Source of the DNA: a virus
DNA: 42,415 nucleotides
IMG/VR virus record: IMGVR_UViG_3300025146_000007
Coordinates: 1-42,415 of that record
Reading direction: 5' to 3' (one strand)
Below the pieces are notes generated by a model, which was not told the origin of the DNA, made no database searches, and saw only the letters and a program-made list of their open reading frames with translations. Position numbers and translations under genes: made by a program. Positions 7,243-42,415 of this stretch are shown piece by piece (within the stretch, counting starts at the first letter, position 1; the number at the start of each line of letters is the position of its first letter).

Positions 7243-7443
7243 ATGGTAGCGGTGGCGAAGCCTGAGCCTATGATTGCCGCGGTGGTGGAAGTGCGCTGCT
7301 GGTCGAGCGCCTGTATGCCGAACGGCCAGCGGCGGCTCTTGCTTCGCGCCGCAATTGAGGGCAAGGCTACGCTATTCCTTCCCTGCCCGCGTTGCGGGTC
7401 TTACAACATCCGTGAAATAGAGGACGGAATTGTGCTAAACTAG
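7243..7443 (+). CDS. Com-like zinc-ribbon protein
   Basis: The 66-residue protein has the pattern EVRCWSSAC, about 20 residues, then LPCPRCGSYNIREI. Two cysteine pairs around a short beta-rich core are the hallmark of the Com family (Mu Com, a translational activator of the phage methylase gene) and related rubredoxin-like zinc ribbons. The ATG lies 2 nt after the previous stop. The 3' end overlaps the extended -10 promoter at 7432-7441. A regulatory role is possible but inferred only from family resemblance. Confidence 0.75.
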   Translation: MVAVAKPEPMIAAVVEVRCWSSACMPNGQRRLLLRAAIEGKATLFLPCPRCGSYNIREIEDGIVLN

Positions 7444-7457
7444 CGCCAATCGAATAG
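7432..7457 (+). promoter_or_regulatory. Extended -10 late promoter, copy 1
   Basis: GTGCTAAACT at 7432-7441 contains an extended -10 box (TGC then TAAACT). CGCCAA follows at 7444-7449 and AATAG at 7453-7457. The same three blocks occur with the same spacing at 37384-37409, ahead of the terminase operon; 20 of 26 positions agree. No good -35 box is present at 17 bp, as is common for extended -10 promoters. Expected transcription start is near 7448. It overlaps the end of the Com-like gene and is followed by a strong terminator at 7484. Confidence 0.65.
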
Positions 7458-7483
7458 ACCACCGAGGCCCCAGCACCGCGTCG

Positions 7484-7523
7484 AGGCCCTTAAGCGCGGA
7501 CCAGCTTGAGGGCCTTTTCTTTT
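7484..7523 (+). terminator. Intrinsic terminator in the leader of the capsid operon
   Basis: A 12-bp stem (AGGCCCTTAAGC at 7484-7495 with GCTTGAGGGCCT at 7504-7515, one G-U pair) closes an 8-nt loop and is followed by TTTTCTTT. This is a textbook rho-independent terminator on the + strand. It lies about 36 nt after the predicted start of the 7432 promoter and directly before the scaffold gene. The downstream structural genes therefore need either read-through, antitermination or another promoter. Confidence 0.85.
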
Positions 7524-10170: not shown

Positions 10171-10977
10171 ATGGCACGCAGAGGATTCACATGGAGCAGG
10201 TCGGTCGCGTCCGGCGCCAACGTCACGGGCGTCTTGCAGCTACGCGCTGAGGACCAGTCCGCCGGCCAGCTCATTTCAGGGGTAGCGCCCTACATCTTCG
10301 ATGAGAACGGGCGCATCAGCACCAGCTCCCACGCTGGCGCGGCGATTACGATCCCCGACTCCTACACCCTTGGAGAAATGTGGGAGCTTCGCTGGACGTT
10401 CGCCGAGACTGGCAACTCGACTCGCCGTGGCATCTTCCTAGAAGTGCGCCAGGGTGTAGCCAACTCGGCCACCCTCTCGGGCATGGAGGTCACGGCCCGC
10501 CAGTCGGCCGCGGTTGCGATAGGCACGCTCGAAGGCATCAATGGGCGAGCCAACATTGCTTCCACTTCTACGGGCAACATCTCCGCTGCCTTTGGTGTGA
10601 CGGGCGAGATCAACATCAACAGCTCGGCCTACACGGGCACGATCACCTATCAGGCCGGTGTCCGTTCTAAGGTTCAGGTGGAAGACGGCTCGACACTGAC
10701 AGCGGGAAACCCCGTCACTCCAGCTGGCTCTTACCTGTTCTTTGGTCAGCAAGAAGGCGTGTCTGGGCCGGTCGTCAAGATGGCGGCCGTCCTCGGGGCT
10801 TCCGCTACCAATCAATCGTCAGAGTCCTTCGACACCATCATCGACTCAAGGGGCGTGCTGACCACGGTATCCAATACCGACCAGTCCTTGCTCTGGAAGT
10901 TTCTCAACAGCTCCGGCACGGCGATCTACATGCGTTATGACCAGTCGGTCGGTGGGCTGGTTTTTGCGACGAGCTGA
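10171..10977 (+). CDS. Structural beta-rich protein, probable second decoration or fibre protein
   Basis: The 268-residue protein has AAGGAGAG ten bases before the ATG. It is rich in Ser, Thr, Gly and Ala with strand-like alternation throughout (for example ITYQAGVRSKVQVEDG and VVKMAAVLGASATN) and a conserved-looking opening that reads DENGRISTSSHAG. The pattern resembles the beta-rich surface proteins found next to capsid genes in many environmental phages. No enzyme motif was seen. It is probably expressed together with the capsid and the gene at 9296. Confidence 0.6.
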   Translation: MARRGFTWSRSVASGANVTGVLQLRAEDQSAGQLISGVAPYIFDENGRISTSSHAGAAITIPDSYTLGEMWELRWTFAETGNSTRRGIFLEVRQGVANSATLSGMEVTARQSAAVAIGTLEGINGRANIASTSTGNISAAFGVTGEININSSAYTGTITYQAGVRSKVQVEDGSTLTAGNPVTPAGSYLFFGQQEGVSGPVVKMAAVLGASATNQSSESFDTIIDSRGVLTTVSNTDQSLLWKFLNSSGTAIYMRYDQSVGGLVFATS

Positions 10978-28703: not shown

Positions 28704-28771
28704 ACAAGGCAAGACTGATCCCTGAGACGTTGGTTGGCGTCAGCGCCGGTCGCACGGAGTGTCCGGCGTGA
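28700..28771 (+). CDS. Possible leader peptide for the methyltransferase (23 aa)
   Basis: ATG 28700 overlaps the nuclease stop, and the stop TGA 28769-28771 overlaps the methyltransferase GTG 28768 as GTGA. The product MNKARLIPETLVGVSAGRTE is short and unlike any family I know. It may simply couple translation of the two enzymes. GAAGG lies upstream. Confidence 0.35.
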   Translation: MNKARLIPETLVGVSAGRTECPA

Positions 28772-30795: not shown

Positions 30796-31931
30796 GTGTG
30801 GCTGTACCTCCCCTCTACGGTGCTGACGTGAACAAGACCCCAATCGGCTGGACCGACTTCTCGGCGAATCCTCTCCGTGCCCGCAACCGTGAGACCGGCA
30901 AGGTAGGCCACTTCTGCGAGAAGGTGTCGCCCGGCTGTGCTCACTGCTATGCGTCCGAGTGGAACGAGCACCGCTACGGGACAGGGGTAGCCTTCCTGCC
31001 CGGGAACCGGGAGCTGGTAGAGCCTTACCTGGATGAAAAGGTGCTGGAGAAGATTCTTCTCTATCGAGGCAGCCCCGCAAAGTTATTCCTGTGCGACATG
31101 ACGGACCTGTTTGCCGAGTGGGTGAAAGACGAATGGCTTGACCGCATCTTCGCCACGATGGCCTTGCAGCCGCGGCTCACGTTTCAGGTGCTCACCAAGA
31201 GGCCGGAGCGGATGCGGGAGTACTTTGCGGCGGGGCAATACCGTGACGTGAAGGTGACTGACGCCGCAAAAGGGATGGCCCGGGCACCAATAGATTTTCA
31301 CTTTGCGAAGTTGGGGCGATTAGGTGGCGAAGCGCGGGCAAAGAGTGAATGGCTGCCGTGGCCGCTCGATAACGTCTGGCTCGGCGTGTCCGTCGAGAAC
31401 CAGCACTGGGCCGACGAGCGCATACCGATCCTGTTGGCCACGCCGGCAGCCGTCCGTTTCCTCTCCTGCGAGCCGCTGTTGGGGCCGCTAGACCTGACGC
31501 GGATTAAGTTGCCTAAGCCGCCGCCCGATGCGTGGCTGAAACCCCTCGGTGAGTTCCAAGAGGAGATCGATGCGTTAGCCCGCGAACACATGGACTCAAT
31601 GGGCTTCGTGCGCCGCCTCAAACATGGCATCGATTGGGTGATTGCTGGCGGCGAGTCCGCTGGTCCTGCGGAGCGGGCGCTGGTCGAGCGCTGCATATGT
31701 GGGTGTCACGGTCATTTTGGCCACTATTCCTGTCCTTGTGGGAGCGAGTCCGAGGACGCTTCTCCCGCGGCGTGGATACCCAAGCCCGAAGCCCTGGCCT
31801 GGGTGCGCTCTCTGCGCGACCAGTGCGTCGCAGCCGGGGTGCCCTTTTTCTGGAAGCAATGGGCCGGTCCTCGGCCGACCTCCGGTGGGCGGCTCCTGGA
31901 CGGCCGTACTTGGGATGAGGCGCCGGCATGA
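30792..31931 (+). CDS. DUF5131 (phage Gp37/Gp68) family protein
   Basis: The 379-residue protein carries TPIGWTDFSANPLRARNRET, then FCEKVSPGCAHCYASEWNEH. The three cysteines C-x6-C-x2-C followed by YA are the signature of this family and recall radical-SAM iron-sulphur sites. Later blocks are LFLCDMTDLFAEWV, FQVLTKRPERM, WLGVSVENQ, FLSCEPLLGPLDL, VIAGGESAGPAER and a final helix with FFWKQWAG. The family is widespread in phages and unassigned; a nucleic-acid modification role is possible. GTG 30792 (GTGA overlap) is used; GTG 30828 gives the more usual opening VNKTPIGW. Confidence 0.85.
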   Translation: MSVAVPPLYGADVNKTPIGWTDFSANPLRARNRETGKVGHFCEKVSPGCAHCYASEWNEHRYGTGVAFLPGNRELVEPYLDEKVLEKILLYRGSPAKLFLCDMTDLFAEWVKDEWLDRIFATMALQPRLTFQVLTKRPERMREYFAAGQYRDVKVTDAAKGMARAPIDFHFAKLGRLGGEARAKSEWLPWPLDNVWLGVSVENQHWADERIPILLATPAAVRFLSCEPLLGPLDLTRIKLPKPPPDAWLKPLGEFQEEIDALAREHMDSMGFVRRLKHGIDWVIAGGESAGPAERALVERCICGCHGHFGHYSCPCGSESEDASPAAWIPKPEALAWVRSLRDQCVAAGVPFFWKQWAGPRPTSGGRLLDGRTWDEAPA

Positions 31932-32098
31932 AGGCACCTGTCCTTCACCGGCTCTGTATGCGTCCTGGCTGTGGTAAGCCGGCAGCGGTCTTAGAGGGCA
32001 AGGCTTTAGAGCAAGCCCACCGTCAAGGGGTGACGGTGGATTACCTTCCCAGGCTCTATTGCCGGGAGTGCGAAGGAAAGATCGAGGTACAGGAGTGA
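31928..32098 (+). CDS. Zinc-binding small protein (56 aa)
   Basis: ATG 31928 overlaps the previous stop as ATGA. The product has RLCMRPGCGKPAAVLEGKAL, a basic helix, and RLYCRECEGKIEV, pairing Cys in two knuckles. It resembles a zinc ribbon with an unusually long loop. Function unknown. Its stop overlaps a GTG start as GTGA. Confidence 0.7.
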   Translation: MKAPVLHRLCMRPGCGKPAAVLEGKALEQAHRQGVTVDYLPRLYCRECEGKIEVQE

Positions 32099-32520
32099 GG
32101 CCCTGCATCAATGACCACATCGATTCCGCGCTGTGCTGGCGCTGTTCAGATCAGGTGGGTTGGTGGGCCGAAGCACGCCAGAAGGCTGGGATTGAGCTGT
32201 ACGAAAGGAGAGAACTTGATGGCCACGCCCCCTTATCAGCTCTTGAGGCCGACCGACCCGGACCTGGGGTGGACGAGTTTCTCCATCGCGTTCAGGCGCG
32301 ACAGCAAGACCCTTCATATGTTGTATCCGCCCAACATTCCGGACGAAGACCTAGCGCTCGTAATCATGGTGCTCCAACGGGAAGCCCGGAGGCGGCTGGC
32401 GTCCTACAAGACATCCAAGAGTGGGAGGCTCGGGTAGACGACTTTTGGTCCGAGCATCCTGACCTGACTCGTGCTCAAGCACGGGAAACTCTGCGCCGGC
32501 GAGAGGCGAAGCATGGCTAG
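32095..32520 (+). CDS. Hypothetical protein (141 aa) containing a nested gene
   Basis: The GTG start is coupled to the previous stop. Residues 1-40 look real (MRPCINDHIDSALCWRCSDQ, then a Trp/Ala/Arg helix) and residues 105-141 look real (WEARVDDFWSEHPDLTRAQA). The middle, residues about 42-100, is low-complexity and coincides with the separate gene at 32219-32437 in another frame. The binding site of that nested gene (AAAGGAG) lies within this frame. Confidence 0.55.
   Translation: MRPCINDHIDSALCWRCSDQVGWWAEARQKAGIELYERRELDGHAPLSALEADRPGPGVDEFLHRVQARQQDPSYVVSAQHSGRRPSARNHGAPTGSPEAAGVLQDIQEWEARVDDFWSEHPDLTRAQARETLRRREAKHG
32219..32437 (+). CDS. Nested small protein (72 aa)
   Basis: AAAGGAG at 32204-32210 is well placed for ATG 32219. 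The product (MATPPYQLLRPTDPDLGWTS, FSIAFRRDSKTLHMLYPPNI, then DEDLALVIMVLQREARRRLA) has two beta strands and an amphipathic C-terminal helix and looks like a folded protein. It lies completely within the frame of the gene at 32095. One of these two frames may be an accident, but the binding site favours this one. Confidence 0.6.
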   Translation: MATPPYQLLRPTDPDLGWTSFSIAFRRDSKTLHMLYPPNIPDEDLALVIMVLQREARRRLASYKTSKSGRLG

Positions 32521-33322
32521 GACTCGCGACATCAAGCCCAGCTTTTTCAGTAATGAAGACCTTGGCGCTTTACCAATGGCGGCCCGCCTGCTCTATATCG
32601 CCCTGTGGCAGCTCGCGGACCGTGAAGGTCGACTAGAGGACAGACCGTCTCGAATCAAGGCGTATGCCTTCCAGTATGACAAGCGCGGGATCGACATCGA
32701 GGGATTGCTGGCGGCCCTAGAAGCCAAGCACTTCGTCCGCCGCTACGAGGTTGAGGGGGTGCGGTGTATCTGGATTCCGACATTCCAGAGGAACCAGCAC
32801 ATTCATCCGCACGAGGCGACGAGCACACTCCCCAGCCCTCCAGAGGCCGTAATCGCGACAATACCGGGAATGTCATTACATGGAGAGACTTGTACTGACA
32901 AGTCATTACATGTAGAGACTTGTACTGACAAGTCATTAAATGTCGCCTTGCTCTCTGAGCCTTCTTTTCCCTCTTTGCCTTCTTTGCCCTCTTTGCCTTC
33001 TAGTGATCTTGAGCAGCAGCAGCTGCGCCCGAACATTTTCAGCCTTTACGAACAAGCGTTTAGTGGCGGCTTGAACGGGATGCTCAGGGAGGAATTGCTT
33101 GCTCTTGAGCAGGAGCATCCGCCGGACTGTGTTGAGCATTGCTTCAAAGCTGCGGCCTTAGCACAGCCTCGGCCGCGGAGTGTTTTGTGGGTGAAGGCGC
33201 GTCTTGAAGCGCACAGGAGGGATGGTTGTGGCGGCAACGCAAACGGAACAAATCGCGGCAAGTCAGCAGCGGGCGCAAATACCTCGCGAGTGGCAGCTCG
33301 AATTCGCGGAGTGGGCCAATGA
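32513..33322 (+). CDS. DnaD-like replication initiation protein (269 aa)
   Basis: The N-terminal domain reads RDIKPSFFSNEDLGALPMAA, RLLYIALWQLADREGRLEDR, PSRIKAYAFQYDK, the familiar winged-helix opening of phage replication proteins. Residues about 120-165 contain two copies of the repeat (S-L-H-x-E-T-C-T-D-K) and a Ser/Pro/Leu linker. The C-terminal domain (NIFSLYEQAFSGGLNGMLRE and RSVLWVKARLEAHRRDG) matches the DnaD fold, which loads the host helicase. ATG 32513 is preferred because it has GAGAGG upstream and matches the family start. Confidence 0.8.
   Translation: MARTRDIKPSFFSNEDLGALPMAARLLYIALWQLADREGRLEDRPSRIKAYAFQYDKRGIDIEGLLAALEAKHFVRRYEVEGVRCIWIPTFQRNQHIHPHEATSTLPSPPEAVIATIPGMSLHGETCTDKSLHVETCTDKSLNVALLSEPSFPSLPSLPSLPSSDLEQQQLRPNIFSLYEQAFSGGLNGMLREELLALEQEHPPDCVEHCFKAAALAQPRPRSVLWVKARLEAHRRDGCGGNANGTNRGKSAAGANTSRVAARIRGVGQ
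32873..32942 (+). repeat. 30-bp direct repeats inside the replication gene, candidate origin
   Basis: Two 30-bp units (32873-32902 and 32903-32932) differ at one base, and a third begins at 32933. Each holds the inverted repeat CTTGT-ACTG-ACAAG, so the unit is an iteron with a dyad. A pyrimidine-rich, easily melted tract with short CTCTTTGCC repeats follows (about 32960-33000). Repeats in the initiator gene itself recall the lambda O gene, where they form the origin. An origin role is inferred. Confidence 0.6.
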
Positions 33323-33563
33323 CAGCCTTCAAAGCCTCTCGGTTGACCCCGTGGCTCACACGAACGTGCGGACCTATGCGCGGTGGGAGTTGGAGCATCG
33401 GCGGGCGTTCGAGGTGCTGATTGAGATGCACCCAGAGACCGGGGTGGCGATTCGGTTGGTGTCGGACGCCGACCTTGATGCTTTCGATGCTGCCATGGCT
33501 CGCGTCAAAGAGCGAACTCGGCAGCGATTCGGAAGCGTTGAGGACGGTCCAGGAAAGGAGTGA
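33228..33563 (+). CDS. Hypothetical protein (111 aa)
   Basis: AGGAGG at 33215-33220 lies 7 nt before GTG 33228 and only 1 nt before ATG 33222, so the GTG is the likely start. The product is helical and charged, with IPREWQLEFAEWANDSLQSL and RWELEHRRAFEVLIEMHPE. It overlaps the last 95 bases of the replication gene. No family was recognised; a helicase-loading partner is one possibility. Confidence 0.6.
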   Translation: MAATQTEQIAASQQRAQIPREWQLEFAEWANDSLQSLSVDPVAHTNVRTYARWELEHRRAFEVLIEMHPETGVAIRLVSDADLDAFDAAMARVKERTRQRFGSVEDGPGKE

Positions 33564-33566
33564 GTG

Positions 33567-34175
33567 ATGGCTGAGATGATACGCGCATGGCATTTCCTGC
33601 GCGACGACATGAGGTCTGGTTCGGGTGCTGAGCCTGCCTGGACGGAGGGGGAGGAGCGCACGATCACGGGGCGGCTCAAGCTCTGTGATCGCGGCTACCA
33701 TTCGAGCCCAACGCCCTGGGACGCATTGCAGTACGCGCCGGGCTCGATGCTGTGCCTAGTCGAAATTTCGGAGCCCGTGAAGCGAGACAAAGACAAGGCG
33801 GTGAGCCGGACAAGGCGGCTTGTGCGGGCCATCAACATCGAGCGCGAGTTGCGGCTGTTCGCCTGTGATTGCGCCGAGAGCGCGGTGGAGATCGTGAGGA
33901 CGCGGGGCGCGAAGCCCGACCCGCGCAGTCTCGCCGCGATAGCCACCGCACGCCGCTTTGCCAACGGCGAGGCGAGCGTTGAAGAGTTAGATGCCGCTGC
34001 CACGTCCGCCGCCGAGGCCGCCAGGGCCGCCGCCGAGGCCGCCTGGGCCGCCTGGGCCGCCTGGGCCGCCGCCGAGGCCGCCTCGGCCGCCAGGGCCGCC
34101 AGGGCCGCCGCCGAGGCCGCCAAAGCGCAGTTCAACGAGATGGCAGAGGCTCTGTTTGAAAGGACTTCGGCATAG
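33567..34175 (+). CDS. DUF7666-like phage protein with Ala-rich C-terminal repeat (202 aa)
   Basis: ATG 33567 follows AGGAG at 33556-33560. The N-terminal domain (AWHFLRDDMRSGSGAEPAWT, KLCDRGYHSSPTPWDALQYA, PGSMLCLVEI) is a common phage family that I would group with DUF7666; its function is unknown. Residues about 145-190 are a run of AA(E/R/W)AA units. The DNA of that run is shared, inverted, with the gene at 36114-36701. The repeat is made of GCC codons and is likely unstable in length. Confidence 0.7.
   Translation: MAEMIRAWHFLRDDMRSGSGAEPAWTEGEERTITGRLKLCDRGYHSSPTPWDALQYAPGSMLCLVEISEPVKRDKDKAVSRTRRLVRAINIERELRLFACDCAESAVEIVRTRGAKPDPRSLAAIATARRFANGEASVEELDAAATSAAEAARAAAEAAWAAWAAWAAAEAASAARAARAAAEAAKAQFNEMAEALFERTSA
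33999..34128 (+). repeat. GCC-rich 9-bp tandem repeat; inverted partner at 36183-36227
   Basis: Degenerate 9-bp units of the form GCC-GCC-NNG encode Ala-Ala-X. Bases 33999-34013 and 34023-34052 match exactly the reverse complement of 36183-36227, except for one extra 9-bp unit between the two blocks here. The two genes are otherwise unrelated and lie on opposite strands. Confidence 0.8.
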
Positions 34176-34228
34176 GTTACGGAGGCCAGGCGCGCACGGC
34201 CCTCGTCACGATTGCGCTCCTGGTCCTA

Positions 34229-34786
34229 GTGTTCGTAGGGAGGTTCGATGGAAACAATCGCGATAGTGCTCTTGATGGTGGCGATAATTCTGGGCCTGAT
34301 CAGTCAATGGCTGTGGATGGCAGAGGCTCGGCGCTGGAAGGCCAGAGCGATGAAGGCGGAGGCGTTTCTGCCGCGCCCCGGCTCCCTCAGGTAGCCGTAG
34401 ATGCTGTCCCCGCTGCTCCTGAGCCTATTCCTGCTCCTGAGCCTGATGCGCCGGCGTGGGTATGGCCGTCTGCTGCTGAGGTCGAGGCGCTTATCTGTTC
34501 GTACTCATGGCCCTGTGGCGAGGCGCTTGCCGTGGTCTACGGCCCGACGCCGCCGAACGAGAGGGCACCGGTCGGCTGTCCTAATGGGGAGTCCGGCGGC
34601 AATCCATCAGCTAGCAACGGAGATCATGCTGGCCTCTTCCAAATCTCGCGGCGATGGCACGAATGGCGGTTCCTCCGTCGTGGTTGGACTTGGGCCGATG
34701 CCTTCGATGCCGAGCGCAACATCGCCGTTGCCTACGAGATTTGGGTTGACAACTCCGGGTGGTCGCCATGGTCGTGTAAACCATGA
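34229..34786 (+). CDS. Lysozyme/transglycosylase-like lysis protein
   Basis: The C-terminal 100 residues carry VGCPNGESGGNPSASNGDHA, GLFQISRRWHEWRFLRRG, and NIAVAYEIWVDNSGWSPWSC. The ESGG(N)P, GLFQI and NI.VAY.IW...GW.PW blocks are those of SLT-type phage lysozymes, with the catalytic Glu in ESGG. A Pro-rich linker precedes the domain. The start is unclear: GTG 34229 and ATG 34307 lack binding sites, but the open frame extends to 34160 and encodes a membrane helix (TALVTIALLVLVFVG). An ATA at 34172 with AAAGGA upstream is the only candidate that includes it. Confidence 0.75.
   Translation: MFVGRFDGNNRDSALDGGDNSGPDQSMAVDGRGSALEGQSDEGGGVSAAPRLPQVAVDAVPAAPEPIPAPEPDAPAWVWPSAAEVEALICSYSWPCGEALAVVYGPTPPNERAPVGCPNGESGGNPSASNGDHAGLFQISRRWHEWRFLRRGWTWADAFDAERNIAVAYEIWVDNSGWSPWSCKP
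34248..34394 (+). CDS. Small membrane protein overlapping the lysozyme gene (48 aa)
   Basis: GTAGGGAGG lies 5 nt before ATG 34248. The product has one transmembrane segment (IAIVLLMVAIILGLISQWLW) followed by a basic tail (ARRWKARAMK). It lies in a different frame within the lysozyme gene. Overlap of a membrane protein and an endolysin suggests a holin, antiholin or spanin-like role. Confidence 0.65.
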   Translation: METIAIVLLMVAIILGLISQWLWMAEARRWKARAMKAEAFLPRPGSLR

Positions 34787-34932
34787 GTCAGGTTCAGGAG
34801 GGTGAAGTGAGCGTCATCTTCCGGCGGCGCCGACCAAGGCTAGAACATGATCGTCTGCGCTGTGCGGGCAAGCGTGTTTATTCCTCTTGGCCTGCCGCGG
34901 AACAAGCTTCGTGCGCCACTGGTGATCCATGA
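34783..34932 (+). CDS. Basic hypothetical protein (49 aa)
   Basis: ATG 34783 overlaps the lysozyme stop as ATGA. The product has VSVIFRRRRPRLEHDRLRCA and two more Cys. No family was recognised. It lies in a region of slightly irregular codon use, so it may be an operon filler. Confidence 0.45.
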   Translation: MSQVQEGEVSVIFRRRRPRLEHDRLRCAGKRVYSSWPAAEQASCATGDP

Positions 34933-34944
34933 AGGCGGCTGGTC

Positions 34945-35238
34945 ATGAGTAACGACTACATCAAAGCCCGGTATTGGGAGCGTTACGGGTATGGGAGGGG
35001 AGACATGAGGAGATACGAGGAGATCGGACGCATTGCGGAGCTAGAGCTTCTAGCTCGTGAGCTGGCCGAGGCGCTACGGCGCTCCGATTCGACGCTCTCG
35101 TACATCGTGGCGCGTGCTGGTATCAGTTGGGTGCCCCGTCCGGGATTCAACCTCACTAAGGATGAGGTTGACCGCCGCATCATCGGCGAAAGTCGCAAGG
35201 CCCTCGCCCGCTACGACGCCATGAAGGGAGAGTCCTGA
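34945..35238 (+). CDS. Helical hypothetical protein (97 aa)
   Basis: GAAGG lies upstream of ATG 34945. The product has an aromatic, charged N terminus (IKARYWERYGYGRGDMRRYE), a long helix (IGRIAELELLARELAEALRR) and a short C-terminal domain with VARAGISWVPRPGFN. The function is unknown. Its stop overlaps the next ATG as TGATG. Confidence 0.65.
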   Translation: MSNDYIKARYWERYGYGRGDMRRYEEIGRIAELELLARELAEALRRSDSTLSYIVARAGISWVPRPGFNLTKDEVDRRIIGESRKALARYDAMKGES

Positions 35239-35684
35239 TGGCAAGATGCGCGGCCTCTTATACGAGTCGTCAGGGGAAGCCGTGCCGGTGTCTGCGTACA
35301 GAAGGCCACGCCGATAGTCATGTTTGTAAGCACGAGGTGGACTGGTACAGCGATGCCGCCCACCGATTTCGTAATACAGAACCGGCCTTCGTCGCTCTCC
35401 AGGCCCGCATCCAGGAGCTAGAGGCCGAGCGCGTCACGCTGCTGAGTGAGGGTGCAACCAATGGTTGGGCCTGGGTTGACCGCGTCTTGTACGAGGCTGT
35501 CCTTAGTGAGCGTGACACGCAGGACGAGTGGCGGCGCGGGATCACTGCTGGCGCCGGCGAAGGCATGATCTACCACGTGGCAGGGTTCGTTAGCCGGGGG
35601 GATTTGGTCGGTTGGCACATGCCAACCCCGGGTAAGTGTGCCGAGTGCGACTGGCTGGCCGCGCATCCGGCGAAGGAAGGATGA
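35238..35684 (+). CDS. Zinc-binding protein with two Cys/His clusters (148 aa)
   Basis: The first cluster is RCAASYTSRQGKPCRCLRTE then GHADSHVCKHEVDWYS, a pattern of Cys and His with a GHxxxHxC element found in many short phage proteins. The middle is a helical, charged segment (FVALQARIQELEAERVTLLS). The C terminus has CAECDWLAAHP. Function unknown. It directly precedes the CsrA gene and overlaps it by 4 nt. Confidence 0.7.
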   Translation: MARCAASYTSRQGKPCRCLRTEGHADSHVCKHEVDWYSDAAHRFRNTEPAFVALQARIQELEAERVTLLSEGATNGWAWVDRVLYEAVLSERDTQDEWRRGITAGAGEGMIYHVAGFVSRGDLVGWHMPTPGKCAECDWLAAHPAKEG

Positions 35685-35890
35685 GCTTGGCCCTTATCTT
35701 GTCCCGCCGCAAGAACGAGGGAGTGGTGATCCAGACGCCGTATGGACCGGTGCGTGTGTTCGTGACCGAGATCAGTTGGCGCCGTGTCAAGCTAGGCTTT
35801 GAGGCGCCGGCCGAGATCCGGATCATGCGGGAGGAGCTGCTAGAGCAAGGCGCCCAGCCTGAGCCGGGCGCCTGCGTGGTTGGTGGGTGA
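35681..35890 (+). CDS. csrA: CsrA-family RNA-binding regulator
   Basis: The 69-residue protein reads LALILSRRKNEGVVIQTPYG, a short beta hairpin, then RRVKLGFEAPAEIRIMREEL. These are the two conserved ends of CsrA: the L.L.RR..E.(I/V).I opening and the V.LG.EAP..I.I.REE block with the RNA-contacting Arg. CsrA dimers bind GGA motifs near ribosome binding sites and block or aid translation. The protein could steer host carbon metabolism or time phage translation, where many leaders contain AAGGAG. It closes the early operon. A GGCGCCC/GGGCGCC stem lies in its last codons. Confidence 0.85.
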   Translation: MSLALILSRRKNEGVVIQTPYGPVRVFVTEISWRRVKLGFEAPAEIRIMREELLEQGAQPEPGACVVGG

Positions 35891-35941
35891 GGGTCAGCGA
35901 GCATGCGCCGCGCTTTCCGCGCTTTGTCAGAGCTTCACACT

Positions 35942-36117
35942 TCATCTTTCCGTCTCCTTCCGGGCATCCCTCAATTCGTCTCGGACGAGGTCGTTGATCA
36001 TGCGTGTGGAGGCGGTATTGAGCCGCAACCCTGTCTGGGTTCGCTCACGAGGACGGTCACGAGGTAGCCGGCCACATCGTCACGAAAGGCAACTGGGGCT
36101 GCCTGGTGCGGGCTCAT
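35942..36117 (-). pseudogene. Small minus-strand gene, apparently frameshifted
   Basis: The frame starting at 36117 (ATGA overlap with the gene before it) gives MSPHQAAPVAFRDDVAGYLV, then TVLVSEPRQG, but soon stops at 35999. A -1 shift near 36030 would continue into LRLNTASTRMINDLVRDELR, then DARKETER, ending at 35942. Each half looks protein-like and together they read smoothly. This could be a broken gene, a sequencing error, or a programmed shift. No canonical slippery heptamer is evident. The remaining 51 bases to the CsrA stop hold nothing I can name. Confidence 0.45.
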
Positions 36118-36701
36118 GCGGCGAACTCCAATGCCTGACGTGCCAAGGAGGGTAGGTCAACGAAGGCCCTGGCGGCCCCGGCGGCGGCCCAGGCGGCCTC
36201 GGCGGCGGCCCTGGCGGCGGACGTGGCAGCGGAGCGATCTTTGCCGCTTAGCCAATCTTCGGCCCATCGGTTCCAGGACTCAGCTTGATAGACCGCTCGC
36301 CCGCAATAGATGGCGAACGCCACCCGTTGCTCTGTCGTGATGACTGGTACGGGCAACTCGCGTTCGGTGGTCAGAGTCTTGACCCCACATTTCAGCGGCC
36401 CGTCGCGCTCTATTGGCCCGCCATCGGGAGAATCGCACTCCCAGAGCCGCAATGTAGCCGCGACGACGTCGCCATGAATCGGGTTGAGGAACAGCGCCAC
36501 AAACGGGTCTTCATAGGCATGAATCCAGCCGTCTGAACACAAGTTTGTGCCTTTGCCGGTAGCCTTGTGGGTGACGTTCTCGCCCCACTGTGTGCCGCCG
36601 TAAGTCTGGCCGTTTTGGTCCGTGAGCTTGTAGAGCTTCATGCGTCCTCCCAGGCCTGCCGGTCCAGCTCTTGCTGCCAGCGAGTCGGTTAATTGGCTCA
36701 T
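36114..36701 (-). CDS. Conserved phage protein with Ala-rich C terminus (195 aa)
   Basis: From MKLYKLTDQNGQTYGGTQWG through NVTHKATGKGTNLCSDGWIH, the gene matches a well-known phage family of unknown function. Later it has KCGVKTLTTERELPVPVITT, then EQRVAFAIYC and WNRWAEDWLSGKDRS, before an Ala-rich stretch and VDLPSLARQALEF. ATG 36701 has AAAGGAG at optimal spacing and overlaps the previous stop. ATG 36641, 20 codons in, has GGGAGG and matches the usual family start. Either may be used. Confidence 0.8.
   Translation of the reverse strand: MSQLTDSLAARAGPAGLGGRMKLYKLTDQNGQTYGGTQWGENVTHKATGKGTNLCSDGWIHAYEDPFVALFLNPIHGDVVAATLRLWECDSPDGGPIERDGPLKCGVKTLTTERELPVPVITTEQRVAFAIYCGRAVYQAESWNRWAEDWLSGKDRSAATSAARAAAEAAWAAAGAARAFVDLPSLARQALEFAA
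36183..36227 (-). repeat. Inverted partner of the Ala repeat at 33999-34052
   Basis: Read on the minus strand, these 45 bases are the same as 33999-34013 joined to 34023-34052. They encode ATSAARAAAEAAWAA here and ATSAAEAARAAAEAAWAA in the + strand gene. The shared nucleotides between otherwise unrelated genes indicate exchange of the repeat segment. Confidence 0.8.
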
Positions 36702-36871
36702 TTCGTCTCCTTTCGGGCGTCTGGCGCCCTCTCTCGCCAGCGCTTCGAGCTGTGGTACCGGGTCCGGCAGGCTGTATCGCAGAACTTGCGCCCGGCCCGG
36801 CCCTTCGTGGCCTTGCCGTCGTGCAGGCACTTGATCCAGACCGGCTCCTTCGGTACGTAGGTGCGCGGCAT
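36698..36871 (-). CDS. Treble-clef zinc-finger protein (57 aa)
   Basis: The ATG overlaps the stop of the gene before it as ATGA. The product reads PRTYVPKEPVWIKCLHDGKA, then GRKFCDTACRTRYHSSKRWR. The C...C and FC...C.. spacing with RYHxxKR is typical of small phage and bacterial treble-clef zinc fingers that bind nucleic acids. The basic tail supports that. Confidence 0.7.
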   Translation of the reverse strand: MPRTYVPKEPVWIKCLHDGKATKGRAGRKFCDTACRTRYHSSKRWRERAPDARKETK

Positions 36872-37245
36872 CAAGCCCAGTCCGAAAGGAGTGCGTGCAG
36901 CTCCTGAGCGTTGTGCCACCCGCAGGTGTCGGGGTCGAGGTCGCGTAGTTCCTGTGGCGAAAACACGAGATAGCCGCCGTTGCGGATATCGTCGTATGTG
37001 GGCTCTAGCCAGATGGGCGTGCCCCACCTCGCCTCTTCTGCGATCAACGCCTCGTCCTCCAGGTCATTGCCCTCCCACCCCGAGAAGGATGGATCGGCTT
37101 GGGCGTCTTTGAGGTCGCGTACCAAATCACGGGCGTCCAGATAATAATGCTGGTAGCGTTGCTGCCTCCCGCTCTGGAGCTGGAGGGTCATGCCGCCCCC
37201 GTTGTCCGCAATTATCAGGATTTGGAGTGCCTGTTTCTGTTTCAT
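36871..37245 (-). CDS. Conserved phage hypothetical protein (124 aa)
   Basis: It is the first gene behind the 37.3-kb minus-strand promoter. The product has QALQILIIADNGGGMTLQLQ, then YQHYYLDARDLVRDLKDAQA, a SGWEGN motif, and an acidic helical C terminus (PQELRDLDPDTCGW). The opening QILIIADNGGG(M/I)TLQLQ with YQH(Y)Y and SGWEGN recurs in many phages and is of unknown function. The ATG has AAGGACA just upstream, within a leader of short repeats. Confidence 0.75.
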   Translation of the reverse strand: MKQKQALQILIIADNGGGMTLQLQSGRQQRYQHYYLDARDLVRDLKDAQADPSFSGWEGNDLEDEALIAEEARWGTPIWLEPTYDDIRNGGYLVFSPQELRDLDPDTCGWHNAQELHALLSDWA

Positions 37246-37312
37246 TGTCCTTGTCCTTGTCCTCCTCTGTGCTCTGTGCTCTGTGCCGCTCCTGTTGCGG
37301 CTCCCTTACGTG

Positions 37313-37341
37313 AGTGTACCCCGCCTATTACACTTTGTCAA
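37313..37341 (-). promoter_or_regulatory. Near-consensus sigma-70 promoter for the minus-strand operon
   Basis: On the minus strand, TTGACA (37341-37336), a 17-bp spacer and TACACT (37318-37313) make a near-perfect promoter. The leader down to the ATG at 37245 contains three CACAGAG units, three ACAAGG-like units and a GCCGC/GCGGC hairpin. The 249-base gap (37246-37494) thus holds this promoter, the divergent + strand promoter at 37384 and the terminator at 37444. Confidence 0.85.
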
Positions 37342-37383
37342 CCCCCCTGCACGAGAAAGTTTTCGCCCCTCTTGCCCTGGCTC

Positions 37384-37409
37384 GTGCTATACTGCCGCCA
37401 ACTAAATAG
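37384..37409 (+). promoter_or_regulatory. Extended -10 late promoter, copy 2
   Basis: GTGCTATACT (37384-37393) contains an extended -10 box (TGC then TATACT), one base off the consensus. CGCCAA (37396-37401) and AATAG (37405-37409) follow at the same distances as in copy 1 at 7432. The expected start is near 37400. As in copy 1, the leader is short and ends in a strong terminator. Confidence 0.7.
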
Positions 37410-37443
37410 CCGGCCTGCCAGGTGAGCAGGTGAGCCTTAGGAT

Positions 37444-37475
37444 GGGCTGGACCCCACAAGGGTCTGGCCCTTTTT
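37444..37475 (+). terminator. Intrinsic terminator in the leader of the terminase operon
   Basis: GGGCTGGACCC (37444-37454) pairs with GGGTCTGGCCC (37460-37470), 11 bp with two G-U pairs and a 5-nt loop, followed by TTTTT. A transcript from the 37384 promoter would stop after about 75 nt, the same length as at the 7.4-kb copy. Terminase, portal and further genes lie directly downstream. Confidence 0.9.
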
Positions 37476-37494
37476 CGTATGCGAGGGAATAGCG

Positions 37495-37782
37495 ATGGAT
37501 CAAGTAGTGGATGTGCCCGCTGTCTGGTCAGGTGCCAACGCTAGCCTGACATGTGTACCGGGCTGCGACTGCGTGGGCAACCCCTACTGGCTCCCTGACT
37601 ACTGCCCTACGGCCGGCAAGGGCGAGGTGTGTGAGGCCGTCTGGCCGATATCAGAGGAGGGCAGGAGATGGCAGCCGATCTTTGAGGTGGCCGAGTGGCA
37701 GTGCCGTTGTGGCCGGCTAGACCACTGGGAGAGCTACCTTACCTCTGCGGGCTCAGCGGTGACGGTGATCAAGTTGCCATGA
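37495..37782 (+). CDS. Cys-rich hypothetical protein at the start of the late block (95 aa)
   Basis: GAGGGAA lies upstream of ATG 37495. The product contains LTCVPGCDCVGNPYWLPDYC, and later EWQCRCGRLDHWES; eight Cys in all. It could bind zinc. It is the first gene behind the promoter-terminator unit, a position where phage antitermination or small packaging proteins occur, but nothing more specific can be read. Confidence 0.7.
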   Translation: MDQVVDVPAVWSGANASLTCVPGCDCVGNPYWLPDYCPTAGKGEVCEAVWPISEEGRRWQPIFEVAEWQCRCGRLDHWESYLTSAGSAVTVIKLP

Positions 37783-37791
37783 GGGCTGAGC

Positions 37792-38115
37792 GTGGCTGCG
37801 TGGCTGAGTTTTGCAGGCTCGAATATGGCTGGTAAAAAAGGTCGCTCGGGCCGAAAGCCTGCCAGCGCCCGAGCCGCCTTCATTGCCTTCGCCGAGGGAT
37901 ACGAGGCCGACAAGCGGCGGGCAATATTGTGGCTGGAGTTGCAGCATCTTGCTGCTAAGGCGGGCGATGGCCAGGCTGGCCGGTTTTTGCTTGAGCAGTA
38001 CATCGGTAAGGCCAATCAACACCTTGAGGTGGCGGAAGAGAAGTCTGACCAGTGGTACAAGCTACAGCGCGAGATAGCTGGACTCAAGAAGGATGCAGAC
38101 TCTAACGCCGGCTAG
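37792..38115 (+). CDS. terS: Terminase small subunit
   Basis: The product contains MAGKKGRSGRKPASARAAFI, a basic opening common to terminase small subunits, then helical, charged sequence (ADKRRAILWLELQHLAAKAG). GTG 37792 has GAGGG 6 nt upstream; ATG 37825 matches the usual family start but has no binding site. It directly precedes and overlaps the large subunit. It would recognise the packaging site in phage DNA. Position is the strongest evidence. Confidence 0.7.
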   Translation: MAAWLSFAGSNMAGKKGRSGRKPASARAAFIAFAEGYEADKRRAILWLELQHLAAKAGDGQAGRFLLEQYIGKANQHLEVAEEKSDQWYKLQREIAGLKKDADSNAG

Positions 38116-39499
38116 CCTGCGTGAGTTCGCCGGCCGCAAGGCACTGGAGCGCGTAGGCGTCGATGTCTCGCCAGAGTTCGGGGCAGCTCTGTTCCCGCGG
38201 CCGAGGGAGAAGGTCGTCACAGGTGGTTGGCAGGCCGGCAAGTCTGTTGAGGGTGCGGCCGAGATATACATCGATCTGCCGCTCATCGACCCTGACCGTG
38301 ACTACCGCTACTGGGTGATCGTCCCTACCTATCGGGCGCCGCACAAGGAGATCGACTACCTGCTCCAGTGGTGCCAGGCGATGGGCATCGTTAGCTCTCA
38401 TCACTTCCCGGATGGATCGAGCTGCCGAATCGCGCTCTTTGGCGGGCGCGTCGTTGTGGAGACCAAGACTGCCGAAGATCCCGAAGGCATCGCGGGCGAG
38501 CCTTGTGACGGCGTGCTCGTGGTTGAGGCGGGCCAGATGCCCGAAACCATCCGCACGCAGGCACAAGGGCGCATCGTTACCCGGCGTGGCTGGATCACGT
38601 ACACCGGGACATTGGAGGACGACGAGGCCAAGCCTCGGTACGCTTGGTACGGGACCTTGGCTGAGCGCTGGCGTGACCACATCACCCACGAGCAAGGAGC
38701 GTACGAGCTGCCGACATGGGCGAATCGCACCGTCTTTCCTGGCGGTCGCCAAGACCCGGAGATTACGCGGCAGGAGCTTATCTTCGATGAGCACAGCTTC
38801 AGCCGCCGCTACGGCGGCAGGGCGAAGGGTGTGCGCTGGGCTGTCTACACGCAGTTACAGGCCCCGAACGCTCGCGCCAAATACCTCAAGCCGATCCCGG
38901 CCGGTCATGACAATTGGGTCTGGGGCCTCGGGGTTGGTGGCGAGGACTACGGCTCCGAGCATGGCCATCCCTCGGCCCTATCAGCGCTGAGCATGAATGA
39001 CCTGGGTGAACTCTGGGTGAGAGAGTGTCACAAGCTCCAGACCTCAGACACGAAGCGGCTGGAAGAGCAGAGGTTGGCTCTCAGTCACCTCTACCGTATC
39101 CCGCGTGTCCGCTGGGGATTCGACCCGATGCTACGTGCTCACGCCGATTACGTCGGCGCCGAGGCCGTCGACGCAGCGGCAGGAGCACGTATGAGGCGGG
39201 CTGGTGGAGTGATAGCTAGGCTCAACGGCCTGCCGGGGATGCTGGGACCGGGGTTGTTTTTCGACATCAACGGCCATGGAGTCACGGACGGCTATGACGA
39301 AATGACGCGAGTCCACCTGGCCAAGAAGCTGATGCCCAACAGAGGCGAAGTCTTTGAGTACGTCAGGATCGCCGACGACGTGACGGCCACAATTGAGAAC
39401 GCCGTCGAGGTGGCGGACGGGAGACAGCCGTTGCCTATAGGCAACACCGTCAAGCTGGTGGGCGCCAGCAAGGCTATCACTCCGGCGAGGGTTAGCTAA
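38093..39499 (+). CDS. terL: Terminase large subunit
   Basis: The 468-residue protein has a Walker A motif in VVTGGWQAGKSVEGAAEIYI, a Walker B-like GVLVVEAGQMP at about residue 140, and the coupling motif ITYTGTLED at about residue 163. The C-terminal half is the RNase H-like nuclease: an Asp in LGVGGEDYG, another in VRWGFDPML and a third in DGYDEMTR. It drives DNA into the procapsid and cuts it at the headful or site. ATG 38093 overlaps the small subunit by 23 nt, and the stop shares its last base with the portal start. Confidence 0.85.
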   Translation: MQTLTPASLREFAGRKALERVGVDVSPEFGAALFPRPREKVVTGGWQAGKSVEGAAEIYIDLPLIDPDRDYRYWVIVPTYRAPHKEIDYLLQWCQAMGIVSSHHFPDGSSCRIALFGGRVVVETKTAEDPEGIAGEPCDGVLVVEAGQMPETIRTQAQGRIVTRRGWITYTGTLEDDEAKPRYAWYGTLAERWRDHITHEQGAYELPTWANRTVFPGGRQDPEITRQELIFDEHSFSRRYGGRAKGVRWAVYTQLQAPNARAKYLKPIPAGHDNWVWGLGVGGEDYGSEHGHPSALSALSMNDLGELWVRECHKLQTSDTKRLEEQRLALSHLYRIPRVRWGFDPMLRAHADYVGAEAVDAAAGARMRRAGGVIARLNGLPGMLGPGLFFDINGHGVTDGYDEMTRVHLAKKLMPNRGEVFEYVRIADDVTATIENAVEVADGRQPLPIGNTVKLVGASKAITPARVS

Positions 39500-41409
39500 T
39501 GGACCGCACGACTGTAGACCACTGGCGCACAGAGCTTGAGTCTCTGTTCAGCCAGTACATGGACGCACGCCGGTCCTGGCGCCAGCTCTTGCACCGGGAG
39601 CTACAGGCGAACGTAGACCCCAAGCTGCGCGACATCGCCGCCTACTACGAGACGCCGGACATCGAGGAGGAGCTGTTCAAGCTCACGGGGATTCTGCAAA
39701 TGAACCCCACCGAGTTTGACTACGTGCTGCTCGGTGACGGGACACGGCTGGAGGAGCGGGCGCAGGACACGGCTCTATGGGTTGCCCGCGGACATCTGGA
39801 CATCAACAAGGGCCGCAAGGTTGACCGCCAGATCGGTGAGGGGCAGGGGCTGGACGGCTGCAAGGTCCAGCGCTTGATGTACCGCCCGCCTACGGAGCTG
39901 GACGGACGCGAGGAGTACGGCGAGACGGACGGGATGCTCTGGTACACCGACGACGTGGACACGCTCTCTGTGCGCTGGCTGCCAAGGGGCGAGGGCTTTG
40001 AATACATCATCTGGGACGCCGAGGTGCCGATCGCATCGGCTAACGAGGACTACCGGGTATCCGGCAAGCAACTCGGCGGCGGCTACAATTCCAAGCTCTA
40101 CTATCGCCCGCTCCTGGACGACTCCAACAAGCTGGTCTGGGTGGGCGATGACGTATCGCCGGACGATAGCCAGTACGGCACCAGCAAGCTGGTCAGGCGG
40201 GTGATCTGTGAGTACCTGGACAAGACTAACAAGTGTCCGGTCTGCCCTGAGGGGCACCCTCTCTGGGCGGGCGTCGAGTACCTGCTGAACGCGGCCGGTG
40301 AGTTCAAGACAGACGGCATCGAGGTCAACCGCTACACGCTGCCGTACCGACACGCCCCGACCTTGCGCGTGATTGCCGGCCGGCGTTCGTCCGACCGCAA
40401 CCCGCACTTCCGCTACCGGCCGGCTCTCTACCCTCTGTTTGTCGAGGCCACGATCATCAACTGGCTCAACACCGTGCTGATGACTCTGGCCAATCGCGAC
40501 TCCTCTCAGGAGCAGGTGTACGCCACGCTGAAGTCCCTGCCCGAGGCGGCCGTGGGCCGGATGCCCGAAGTCTACTGGGACACCATGAGCGTGCCCCTGC
40601 CCAGGCCGGGCGCGAAGGAAGCGCCGATAGTGCCGGGCGAGCTCTTGGCCTGGCCGACCAAGCTGGTTGATGCCTTCCTGACACTGCGAGAGGACGCGCT
40701 GAGGCGCTTCGAGGCGGCCAAGATCAACCGCTTCATCATGGGCGAAGCGTTCCAAGAGGCAAGGGAAGGCACGGGCTCTGCCAACCTCTCGCAACTGCAA
40801 CAGGCCCGACTGCCCTTCAACCCTCTGTTGATGGAGACGGACCAGTTCTGGTTGGAGCTGTATGAGGACATCCTGCACGCCATCCGCTACTGGGACCACG
40901 AGGAGCCCAAGGATACTCAGCGCCAGTACCCGGTGATCGCCGGCGGTGAGGAACCATTGGCTCGGCACCGGGCTGAGCCGGGCACGACCGTCAACCTCAC
41001 GGCCGCCATGCTCGGCGGCTTCCGCCTCAAGCTGAAGACCGAGAACGAGACCTTGCAAGAGCAGATACAGCGCGAGCAGCACGCCTGGTGGAAGTTCGAG
41101 CGCGGGTTTATCGACGACAGTCAGCTTGTCAAGGAATGGGGCTATGCCGACGCCGAGGCCCAACTGAGGCGCATCAACGACTACCGGCTCTACGTGCGTT
41201 CCAAGCATCTGAAGGAAGCGGCGCAACTGTACGTCATCCAGACCCTATTTTCTTCGCAGGCCGACCTCGACCCCGCGCTTTTCGCGCCCGCGCCACCTTC
41301 AGATGGGGCTGAGGCGCCGCCTCAAGGCGGTGGGGTAGGCCAGCCTAGCGTGAGACTGCCGGCGCTCAACGGACCTGCCGGCGGCACCAGTCCAGTGGGG
41401 GGGTTATGA
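39499..41409 (+). CDS. Portal protein
   Basis: The 636-residue protein follows the terminase in the usual order. It opens with helical sequence (WRTELESLFSQYMDARRSWR), has a long charged middle, a short Cys pair (NKCPVCPEGHPLW) within an inserted loop, and helical segments (LFVEATIINWLNTVLMTLAN, then DAFLTLREDALRRFEAAKIN) of the kind that build the portal stem and crown. It ends in a Pro/Gly-rich tail. Twelve copies should form the DNA channel at one capsid vertex. The call rests on position, size and helix pattern. Confidence 0.8.
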   Translation: MDRTTVDHWRTELESLFSQYMDARRSWRQLLHRELQANVDPKLRDIAAYYETPDIEEELFKLTGILQMNPTEFDYVLLGDGTRLEERAQDTALWVARGHLDINKGRKVDRQIGEGQGLDGCKVQRLMYRPPTELDGREEYGETDGMLWYTDDVDTLSVRWLPRGEGFEYIIWDAEVPIASANEDYRVSGKQLGGGYNSKLYYRPLLDDSNKLVWVGDDVSPDDSQYGTSKLVRRVICEYLDKTNKCPVCPEGHPLWAGVEYLLNAAGEFKTDGIEVNRYTLPYRHAPTLRVIAGRRSSDRNPHFRYRPALYPLFVEATIINWLNTVLMTLANRDSSQEQVYATLKSLPEAAVGRMPEVYWDTMSVPLPRPGAKEAPIVPGELLAWPTKLVDAFLTLREDALRRFEAAKINRFIMGEAFQEAREGTGSANLSQLQQARLPFNPLLMETDQFWLELYEDILHAIRYWDHEEPKDTQRQYPVIAGGEEPLARHRAEPGTTVNLTAAMLGGFRLKLKTENETLQEQIQREQHAWWKFERGFIDDSQLVKEWGYADAEAQLRRINDYRLYVRSKHLKEAAQLYVIQTLFSSQADLDPALFAPAPPSDGAEAPPQGGGVGQPSVRLPALNGPAGGTSPVGGL

Positions 41410-41687
41410 ACCGCGCACAGAGGAGAGCCATGAACCAAGACAACGGCCACGTCCCGATCTCCGTACCCCTATTGGGGCAGGACAAGCCGCGAGTGGGGGC
41501 GAACTCTATCGCGGCCTTCATACGCAAGCTGGACGAGAACGGCACGTTCGAGCCTGAGAAGGTCGTGCGCCTGCCTAACGGCCAAGCCAAGGTGGAGGTG
41601 GGCCGCTCGAACTTCGTGGACGCGACCGAACTCTGCGAGATGATCCGCCAGGTGGTGAGGGAGGAGCTGCAGGCGTGGAAGGGGTGA
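41406..41687 (+). CDS. Hypothetical protein (93 aa)
   Basis: ATG 41406 overlaps the portal stop as ATGA; a second ATG at 41430 has AGGAGAG upstream and is also possible. The product has VPISVPLLGQDKPRVGANSI, then AAFIRKLDENG and a helical, acidic C terminus. The opening MNRAQRRAMN is common among short phage proteins. The role is unknown, probably in the virion or in assembly. Confidence 0.65.
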   Translation: MNRAQRRAMNQDNGHVPISVPLLGQDKPRVGANSIAAFIRKLDENGTFEPEKVVRLPNGQAKVEVGRSNFVDATELCEMIRQVVREELQAWKG

Positions 41688-41962
41688 ACCGCAGGGGATT
41701 CTTCAAGGCTCTAGGCGCCCTTGTGGCCGCTCCCGTGGCCTGGAAGCTGGCACCGAAAGAGGAGACGCGGGACTTCACAGGCGTAAAGGCTCGTGGCGAG
41801 ACAAAGGCTTTCGCAAGCTTCGACACGTCCACCATCCCTGCCAACGCGACGATTACGGGGGTAGCCGTCTGGAACCATACGAACATCCCTTACGTGATCG
41901 TGACATGGTATGACGCCAAAGGGGGCCGCGCCGTGGCCGATGTGCGTCAGGTGAACGCATGA
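41684..41962 (+). CDS. Protein with a twin-arginine (Tat) signal (92 aa)
   Basis: GTG 41684 overlaps the previous stop as GTGA, with GGAAGG upstream. The N terminus reads NRRGFFKALGALVAAPVAWK, a full Tat motif (RRGFFK) followed by a short hydrophobic helix. The remaining 65 residues are beta-rich (NATITGVAVWNHTNIPYVIV). A Tat signal means export of a folded product, if it is real. In a phage it could modify the envelope or be used as a membrane tether. Confidence 0.65.
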   Translation: MNRRGFFKALGALVAAPVAWKLAPKEETRDFTGVKARGETKAFASFDTSTIPANATITGVAVWNHTNIPYVIVTWYDAKGGRAVADVRQVNA

Positions 41963-42144
41963 ACCCTCTGCACTGGCATGACCTGGTAACGGCGACCTGG
42001 CTGGGCTTCGCCGGCCACTTCACGCCGGTAGCCAGGTACTTCCATGCCCACCCCGGTAACGGTGAGCCGCACGAGCATCCCGAGCACTGGCGCCTGGAGG
42101 AGAAGATTCAGGAGCGCGAGCGGGAGGCGGCTAAGGCCGGATGA
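41959..42144 (+). CDS. His-rich hypothetical protein (61 aa)
   Basis: ATG 41959 overlaps the previous stop. The product has MNPLHWHDLVTATWLGFAGH, then HAHPGNGEPHEHPEHWRLEE, nine His in 61 residues, followed by a charged helix. The His cluster could bind metal. No family was recognised. Confidence 0.65.
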   Translation: MNPLHWHDLVTATWLGFAGHFTPVARYFHAHPGNGEPHEHPEHWRLEEKIQEREREAAKAG

Positions 42145-42415
42145 ACCAGCGCCTGCCGCTTGAGCAGCTAGAGCTTGTCCCCAAAGTCTCTGAGGATGAG
42201 GAGAACTCTGCCTGTCTGCGCGTGGCCGAACGCCTGGCCGACGAGCTCTACGACGAGATCAAGCGGCTGTGGCCGGATTACACGATCAGCCCCGGCATCA
42301 AGCTCAAGCCCTTCGAGTGGCTCAACCGGATGCTGGTGTTTATCGTCCAGGGCTGGCCCGAGGACGAGATGATGCGAATCCAGGTGGTCGAACTCCTGTT
42401 GAGGGACGACTACAT
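42141..42415 (+). CDS. Hypothetical protein, N-terminal part of a gene that crosses the ends
   Basis: ATG 42141 overlaps the previous stop as ATGA. The N-terminal part reads LEQLELVPKVSEDEENSACL, RVAERLADELYDEIKRLWPD. The frame leaves the window at 42415 and continues at position 100; see the feature at 1-262 for the rest. The full product has 145 residues. Confidence 0.85.
   Translation, partial: MNQRLPLEQLELVPKVSEDEENSACLRVAERLADELYDEIKRLWPDYTISPGIKLKPFEWLNRMLVFIVQGWPEDEMMRIQVVELLLRDDY
42317..42415. repeat. Terminal direct repeat, right copy
   Basis: This is the exact duplicate of positions 1-99 and shows that the two ends join in the middle of one gene. Confidence 0.95.

Follow-up and report, generated by a model that had tools for sequence, protein, structure and literature searches.

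The promoter-terminator cassette at positions 37384–37475 of the window (the whole stretch of DNA analysed, 42,415 nt, whose source record is a circular phage genome of IMG/VR with a 99-nt end repeat) was confirmed as real and as one member of a pair. Its counterpart, cassette 1, lies at 7432–7523 (+) before the scaffold and capsid genes, while cassette 2, i.e., the copy at 37384–37475, lies before the terminase and portal genes. The two are tentatively explained as paired gates of two structural operons, belonging to a late regulon that would be gated by conditional antitermination. Of more interest than the cassette pair is the hairpin at the scaffold start codon, which is kept in two phage lineages.

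Structure and surroundings of the paired cassettes

Cassette 2 opens with a block common to both cassettes (GTGCTATACTGCCGCCAA, 37384–37401, +), within which a start site was placed at 37399–37400 from spacing. An extended -10 promoter of the sigma-70 class comprises TGn directly before a TATAAT-like hexamer, and can dispense with a -35 element. Both cassettes carry putative promoters of this form (TGC TATACT, 5/6 matches, and TGC TAAACT, 4/6); that of cassette 2 is TGCTATACT (37385–37393, +), recognised from sequence only, and its -35 element is absent, with 0–1 of 6 positions matching at spacers of 16–18. The downstream element AATAG (37405–37409, +) occurs in cassette 1 in the same register. 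An intrinsic, or rho-independent, terminator is a GC-rich hairpin with a U-run directly after it, and such a structure closes cassette 2: a stem-loop of 11 pairs with the loop CACAA (37444–37470, +), followed by five T/U (37471–37475, +). A candidate leader ORF of 16 codons (MGWTPQGSGPFSYARE, 37442–37492, +) runs across this terminator behind a weak Shine-Dalgarno sequence (duplex -4.2 kcal/mol), and its stop falls 2 nt ahead of the next start codon. An Rfam search of the cassette returned no match, a tRNA scan gave nothing useful, and other occurrences of cassette 2 were near-identical copies only.

The first ORF after cassette 2 (37495–37782, +; 95 aa, no family match) has the Shine-Dalgarno sequence CGAGGGA just upstream. 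It is the first of two small ORFs, which are followed by the terminase large subunit (38093–39499, +; phrog_2, E 8e-11) and a probable portal protein (39499–41409, +), named from its gene order after the terminase and having relatives in G006, G007 and L050. The terminase as query in viral contigs, and portal proteins against the phage collection, gave nothing useful. No promoter-like site was found on the plus strand between the terminator of cassette 2 and the terminase gene (37475–38093), and the terminator of cassette 1 runs right up to the start codon of the scaffold gene; therefore, transcripts must pass the terminators wherever they began.

The sequence-only reading had set cassette 2 between a near-consensus promoter on the minus strand and the terminase block, and every part was found in its place. 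The promoter (TTGACA-17-TACACT, 37313–37341, −) is of sigma-70 type, matches at 10 of 12 positions and points divergently into ORF 37245–36871 (−), for which a search against phages gave nothing useful. It was the sole promoter-like site from a scan of 30000–42415, where shuffled sequences gave 2.1 ± 1.5; the match by itself is thus not above chance, and it is the position before ORF 37245–36871 that makes the case. It was rejected as a component of the mechanism and treated as a separate divergent promoter. A 7-base inverted repeat (GCACGAG / CTCGTGC, 37349–37355 and 37381–37387) flanks the -35 region of cassette 2 and touches its -10; this is a possible operator, but chance is a likely source of such a repeat in so short a stretch.

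The shared block of cassette 1, GTGCTAAACTAGCGCCAA, with the extended -10 TGCTAAACT (7432–7449, +), is overlapped by the 3' end of a gene for a small zinc-ribbon protein (7243–7443, +; 66 aa, weak family matches only). The terminator stem-loop (7483–7516, +) is followed by a T-rich tract reaching 7523, and its 3' arm contains the scaffold Shine-Dalgarno sequence, GAGGG (7508–7512). The probable scaffolding protein (7522–8349, +; TTG start) begins with LVTANAPELTQ, which resembles VTTDVAEVTQ of G007, and has weak matches in L027 and L050. Behind it lies the major capsid protein (8361–9260, +), homologous to Pelagibacter phage capsids. Pelagibacter phages HTVC111P, HTVC112P and HTVC202P are like the window in this homologous capsid and in the order terminase-portal-scaffold-capsid, although capsid identity is only about 30%.

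Terminators were ranked over all hairpins plus tails, on both strands, by a d'Aubenton-Carafa-type formula. The two top scores in the window belonged to cassette 1 (44.6) and cassette 2 (43.4), the next being 28.5; the third-strongest terminator (35872–35849, −) lies just behind the minus-strand gene block 37245–36114. The predicted 76-nt RNAs of cassettes 2 and 1 fold better than 198/200 and 199/200 shuffles (z = -2.9 for cassette 2). As the sequence-only reading had said, the leader sequences differ: the cassettes have GTGCTAWACTNNCGCCAANNNAATAG in common, in register across the -10 and start region, together with AATAG, and are unrelated upstream of GTGCTAWACTNNCGCCAANNNAATAG (17/56 positions match). 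A search of the whole window counts against a special likeness, since 614 of 1000 random 60-mers (61%) found an equally good match. In a conditional test on the 100 nt ahead of the two strongest terminators, only 6 of 1500 random stretches scored as high as observed, and two of the six (scores 52 and 73) were overlaps with the query itself; of random 17-mers, 0.06% equalled the 11 matches seen over the 17 nt that follow the -10. On these comparisons, the sharing was taken as real yet modest. The claim that leader lengths are equal to the end of the terminator stood only if copy 1 was ended at its second T-run (7523; 92 nt, +76 in both), but the stem starts differ by 9 nt (+36 in cassette 1, +45 in cassette 2) and the stem ends by 2 nt. 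Exact leader length as a common design was rejected, because it hinges on the T-run chosen for copy 1 and because relatives vary.

Elsewhere in the window, an alanine-rich GCC repeat (33993–34121) within ORF 33564–34175 (+) has an inverted copy (36165–36227) within ORF 36114–36830 (−), 36 nt of which are a perfect reverse complement. A 30-nt tandem duplication, 97% identical (32872–32931), lies inside the replication-initiation ORF 32471–33322, and possibly represents origin iterons. The DNA methyltransferase ORF 28759–30795 (678 aa) has family matches at its two ends only (to residue 167 and from about residue 625), and the intervening 450 or so residues may hold an intein or other insert.

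The hairpin at the scaffold start codon

A search with the capsid protein produced L027 and L028, the alignment of which led to L032–L037, and a portal alignment led to L050 and L051. The promoter pattern led to G001, whose capsid protein identified L056–L059. When viral contigs were scanned with the pattern, 17 stretches matched; L012 and L015 were the window's phage, L003 and L005 were G001, and the other 13, viewed in the sequence behind the motif and in some cases by protein comparison, were probably, for the most part, chance matches. L053 (JAHFCS010000091.1), a bacterial contig of 7.6 kb from the bin of a Gemmatimonadetes MAG, has a capsid gene of the window's family (51% identity) and a promoter-like TTGACA ahead of the scaffold gene, with no hairpin; its placement gives a weak hint of Gemmatimonadetes as the host group. 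The scaffold-site count left out L012, L015 and L026 (same phage as the window), L036 and L057 (no DNA before the capsid gene), L051 (the L050 phage, ending before the scaffold gene), the duplicates L049, L052, L054 and L055 (of G007, G006 and G001) and the Pelagibacter phages L023–L025.

Comparison of G001 with the window's proteins by BLASTP at 1e-4 found no similarity beyond one short stretch, and a permissive search found nothing below E 0.004. The order in G001 is the same as in the window: two large genes, a zinc-ribbon ORF, promoter, hairpin, scaffold and capsid.

At 14 loci with a scaffold start, the stability of the best hairpin ending no more than 9 nt from the start codon was set against that at 150 positions drawn at random from the same record. 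No more than 2 of the 150 were as stable at nine loci (the window, G001, G002, G004, G005, G006, G012, G013 and L058), while the counts were 4/150 for L027, 8/150 for L050, 19/150 for G007 and 55/150 for L053; L037 had no start-codon hairpin. The distance from hairpin end to start codon was constant at 0–6 nt, and the distance from the -10 varied from about 74 to 110 nt. Scaffold-site sequences were mostly too divergent to align. In the G001 lineage the stems could not be aligned, yet they were long, with the start codon 3–6 nt after them; in L056, GAAGACCCTCG was paired with CGAGGGTCTTC, and the sequences of L058 and L059 were quite different. The hairpin appears to be kept across two lineages that share no detected protein similarity, its sequence continuing to change. 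A scan for start-codon hairpins over all genes was too noisy, because starts are uncertain.

Most of these hairpins were poor terminators. The score was below 5 in seven of the eight relatives scored (G001 4.9, G002 -20.4, G004 2.8, G005 -14.8, G006 -18.3, G007 -11.4, L050 -32.2); L027 alone was high (40.2), and a second promoter follows its terminator. There were five T after the stem of L058, while most of the relatives' hairpins at this site had no U-run. Before the terminase, whole-record scans found no strong terminator (score above 25) in any of eight relatives. The sequence-only reading had named absence of the terminator from relatives, or its presence at variable positions, as the outcome that would refute it; these are what the relatives displayed. 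Since the hairpin is kept 0–6 nt from the start codon and is a poor terminator in relatives, it is the start-codon hairpin that evolution keeps, and terminator function at the scaffold site belongs to the window's phage and a small number of others.

The hairpin of the relatives looks like a lock on the ribosome site, and that of the window like a lock that doubles as a terminator. The first rival of the gate, possible but doubtful, sees in the hairpin chiefly a lock on translation of the scaffold gene. The ribosome, RNA processing or an RNA-binding protein (perhaps the zinc ribbon) would open it, and cassette 2 would be a promoter copy with an ordinary terminator. It is favoured by the position and stability of the hairpins at nine of 14 loci and, less strongly, in L027 and L050, and by the long stems retained in the G001 lineage. 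It is also favoured by the mean probability that the Shine-Dalgarno sequence is unpaired, which was 0.00 in the window and G001, 0.02 in L027, 0.13–0.29 in seven others and 0.43 in L053, against a background of 166 genes (median 0.32, lowest decile 0.13); the value was 0.29 or less in 9 of 10 scored scaffold starts. However, only the window, G001 and L027 fell below the lowest decile, three group-2 phages are not independent, and the lock was not seen in L053, L037 or G007. The Shine-Dalgarno sequence is clearly hidden in the window; elsewhere this is no more than a tendency. Moreover, a hairpin that hides the target gene's ribosome site is present in cassette 1 and most relatives but absent in cassette 2, where 24 nt separate the end of the hairpin from the start codon and the probability that the Shine-Dalgarno sequence is unpaired is 0.33. 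Cassette 2 was rejected as a translational lock because its Shine-Dalgarno sequence lies outside the hairpin.

A small CxxC-type gene was found directly upstream of the cassette at 6 of the 14 loci (the window, G007, L050, G001, G012 and G013, the last translated by eye; L058 was ambiguous), which is a further point in favour of the lock. The match to phrog_6417, 'translational regulator', was weak (E 0.078 for the window, 0.037 for G001), as was that to PF10122, Com (E 0.84 for G001). With best E values of 0.04 (phrog_6417) and 0.84 (PF10122), the zinc ribbons were not assigned to the Com family; the accompanying own-genome search lacked a positive control. The published Com motif occurred in 4 of 7 leaders with a zinc-ribbon gene (L058 included) and in 1 of 4 without, which decides nothing.

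A further explanation, rather unlikely as it stands, would make the hairpin one RNA control of scaffold and capsid synthesis in two lineages, often beside a zinc-ribbon gene. The window would then have a double lock, on the ribosome site and on transcription, with the unit repeated before the packaging genes and both late operons opening together.

Two entrances to the late region

Promoters were paired in relatives also. In G002, G004 and G005, near-identical TTGACA-17-TAG(C/G)(A/C)T promoters stand before the portal and before the scaffold gene. They have the -35 and -10 in common and partly also an element of the start region, GGCGACGG; the start region carries GACGG. A late region with two points of supply is therefore not unique to the window. 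By eye, the 5' GACGGT in the leaders of these three phages (L029–L031, L038–L043) can pair with more than one downstream ACCGTC, and their scaffold leaders may switch between two folds. G007 has TTAACA-17-TATACT before the terminase block, with no hairpin after it. In G013, a relative of G001, an extended -10 (TGTTATACT, 10554–10566, L060) occurs at an apparent early divergent control region, so that the box alone is no late signature.

The sequence-only reading had suggested that the late region may be one regulon split between two control points. The shared promoter before the terminase-portal and scaffold-capsid blocks, the circular record and the paired promoters of G002, G004 and G005 support the two control points; the terminator as the conserved part is what did not hold.

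Under the tentatively preferred explanation, RNA polymerase initiating at the extended -10 promoter of either cassette would by default be halted by the strong intrinsic terminator, some 76 nt further on. In late infection, read-through would be permitted by a factor that acts on the promoter and start region common to both cassettes, and the terminase-portal and scaffold-capsid genes would be switched on together. The evidence in hand consists of the promoter-like and terminator sequences, their rank, the shared block, their places and the lack of any promoter-like site between terminator and gene; promoter activity, efficient termination and regulated read-through are inferred from these. 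The window's two strongest terminators stand exactly at the two operon entrances, and the need for transcripts to cross them is the main argument for conditional read-through, the regulation itself being inferred. Against the gate, none of eight relatives has a strong terminator before the terminase, and most scaffold-site hairpins are poor terminators. The shared block contains no binding element of lambda type in the interval from -35 to -10, a sequence resembling a -10-like pause element was seen in cassette 1 (TCGAAT at +4) and not in cassette 2, and extended -10 boxes are not late-specific, given the G013 site. No match to an antiterminator family, Q included, was found among the window proteins scanned, a set that did not take in every small ORF.

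This last result would suit unregulated, leaky attenuators, which would set the transcript level from strong promoters with no phage factor. The short U-run of cassette 2 (five U, then CG) is in keeping with this, and so is the leader ORF, the translation of which could add read-through as it spans the hairpin of cassette 2. But the cassette terminators have the highest scores in the window and the Shine-Dalgarno sequence of the leader ORF is weak, and attenuation of this kind was considered unlikely. That the cassettes are two small-RNA genes of about 76 nt with a common 5' end, the operons being served by other promoters, is highly improbable: they are complete promoter-leader-terminator units with their first 12 nt shared, and the Rfam result speaks against known families only, but no other promoter-like site was found for the operons and cassette 1 overlaps the scaffold ribosome site.

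The gate would work like those of AlpA and Q without being assigned to either class. AlpA of P. aeruginosa loads at two promoters that have a shared element, and polymerase then passes terminators before the first gene of two target operons; one terminator starts 54 nt from the transcription start (PMC7969949). The window is alike in having two promoters, a shared element and an intrinsic terminator soon after, before the first gene (at +36/+45, against 54 nt). It differs in that the AlpA motif given there, GGGACGN5GGTA, is absent from both strands of the window, no AlpA was found, and the shared block spans -14 to about +10 rather than the interval between -35 and -10 (PMC7969949). For Q of phage 21, two sites are required, one for binding between -35 and -10 and the other a -10-like pause element (PMC6606751). 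Q-dependent late promoters (lambda PR', phage 21) have in common with the window a late promoter followed by a terminator that requires read-through. However, compared with them (PMC6606751), the window has no conserved element upstream of the -10 (17/56) and no TGAGCA repeat pair, shows a pause element in just one of its cassettes, yielded no Q protein, and has two gates rather than one.

For the scaffold site, the nearest parallel is the com-mom system of phage Mu, in which Com opens mom as a translational switch (PMC6483171). Cassette 1 and its relatives are similar in having a small zinc-ribbon gene immediately ahead of a gene with a start region predicted to fold into a hairpin. The window differs from that system (PMC6483171) in that the operon concerned encodes scaffold and capsid, the two genes have a promoter between them, the Com match is not significant and cassette 2 does not fit. 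No account of such a late gate or capsid-operon lock in these phages was found in the open-access literature, subscription papers lying mostly outside that search.

There are few phages in which the control of late genes is understood in detail. In the two lineages of uncultured phages compared here, the scaffold gene is preceded by a promoter and a hairpin at its start codon, an arrangement either retained or reached by convergence, and one lineage has a matching promoter-terminator gate before the terminase. If the lock is true, it would be a translational switch of the Com kind acting on genes for the capsid and not on one for DNA modification; if the terminator gate is true, it would offer a new place in which to seek an antiterminator.
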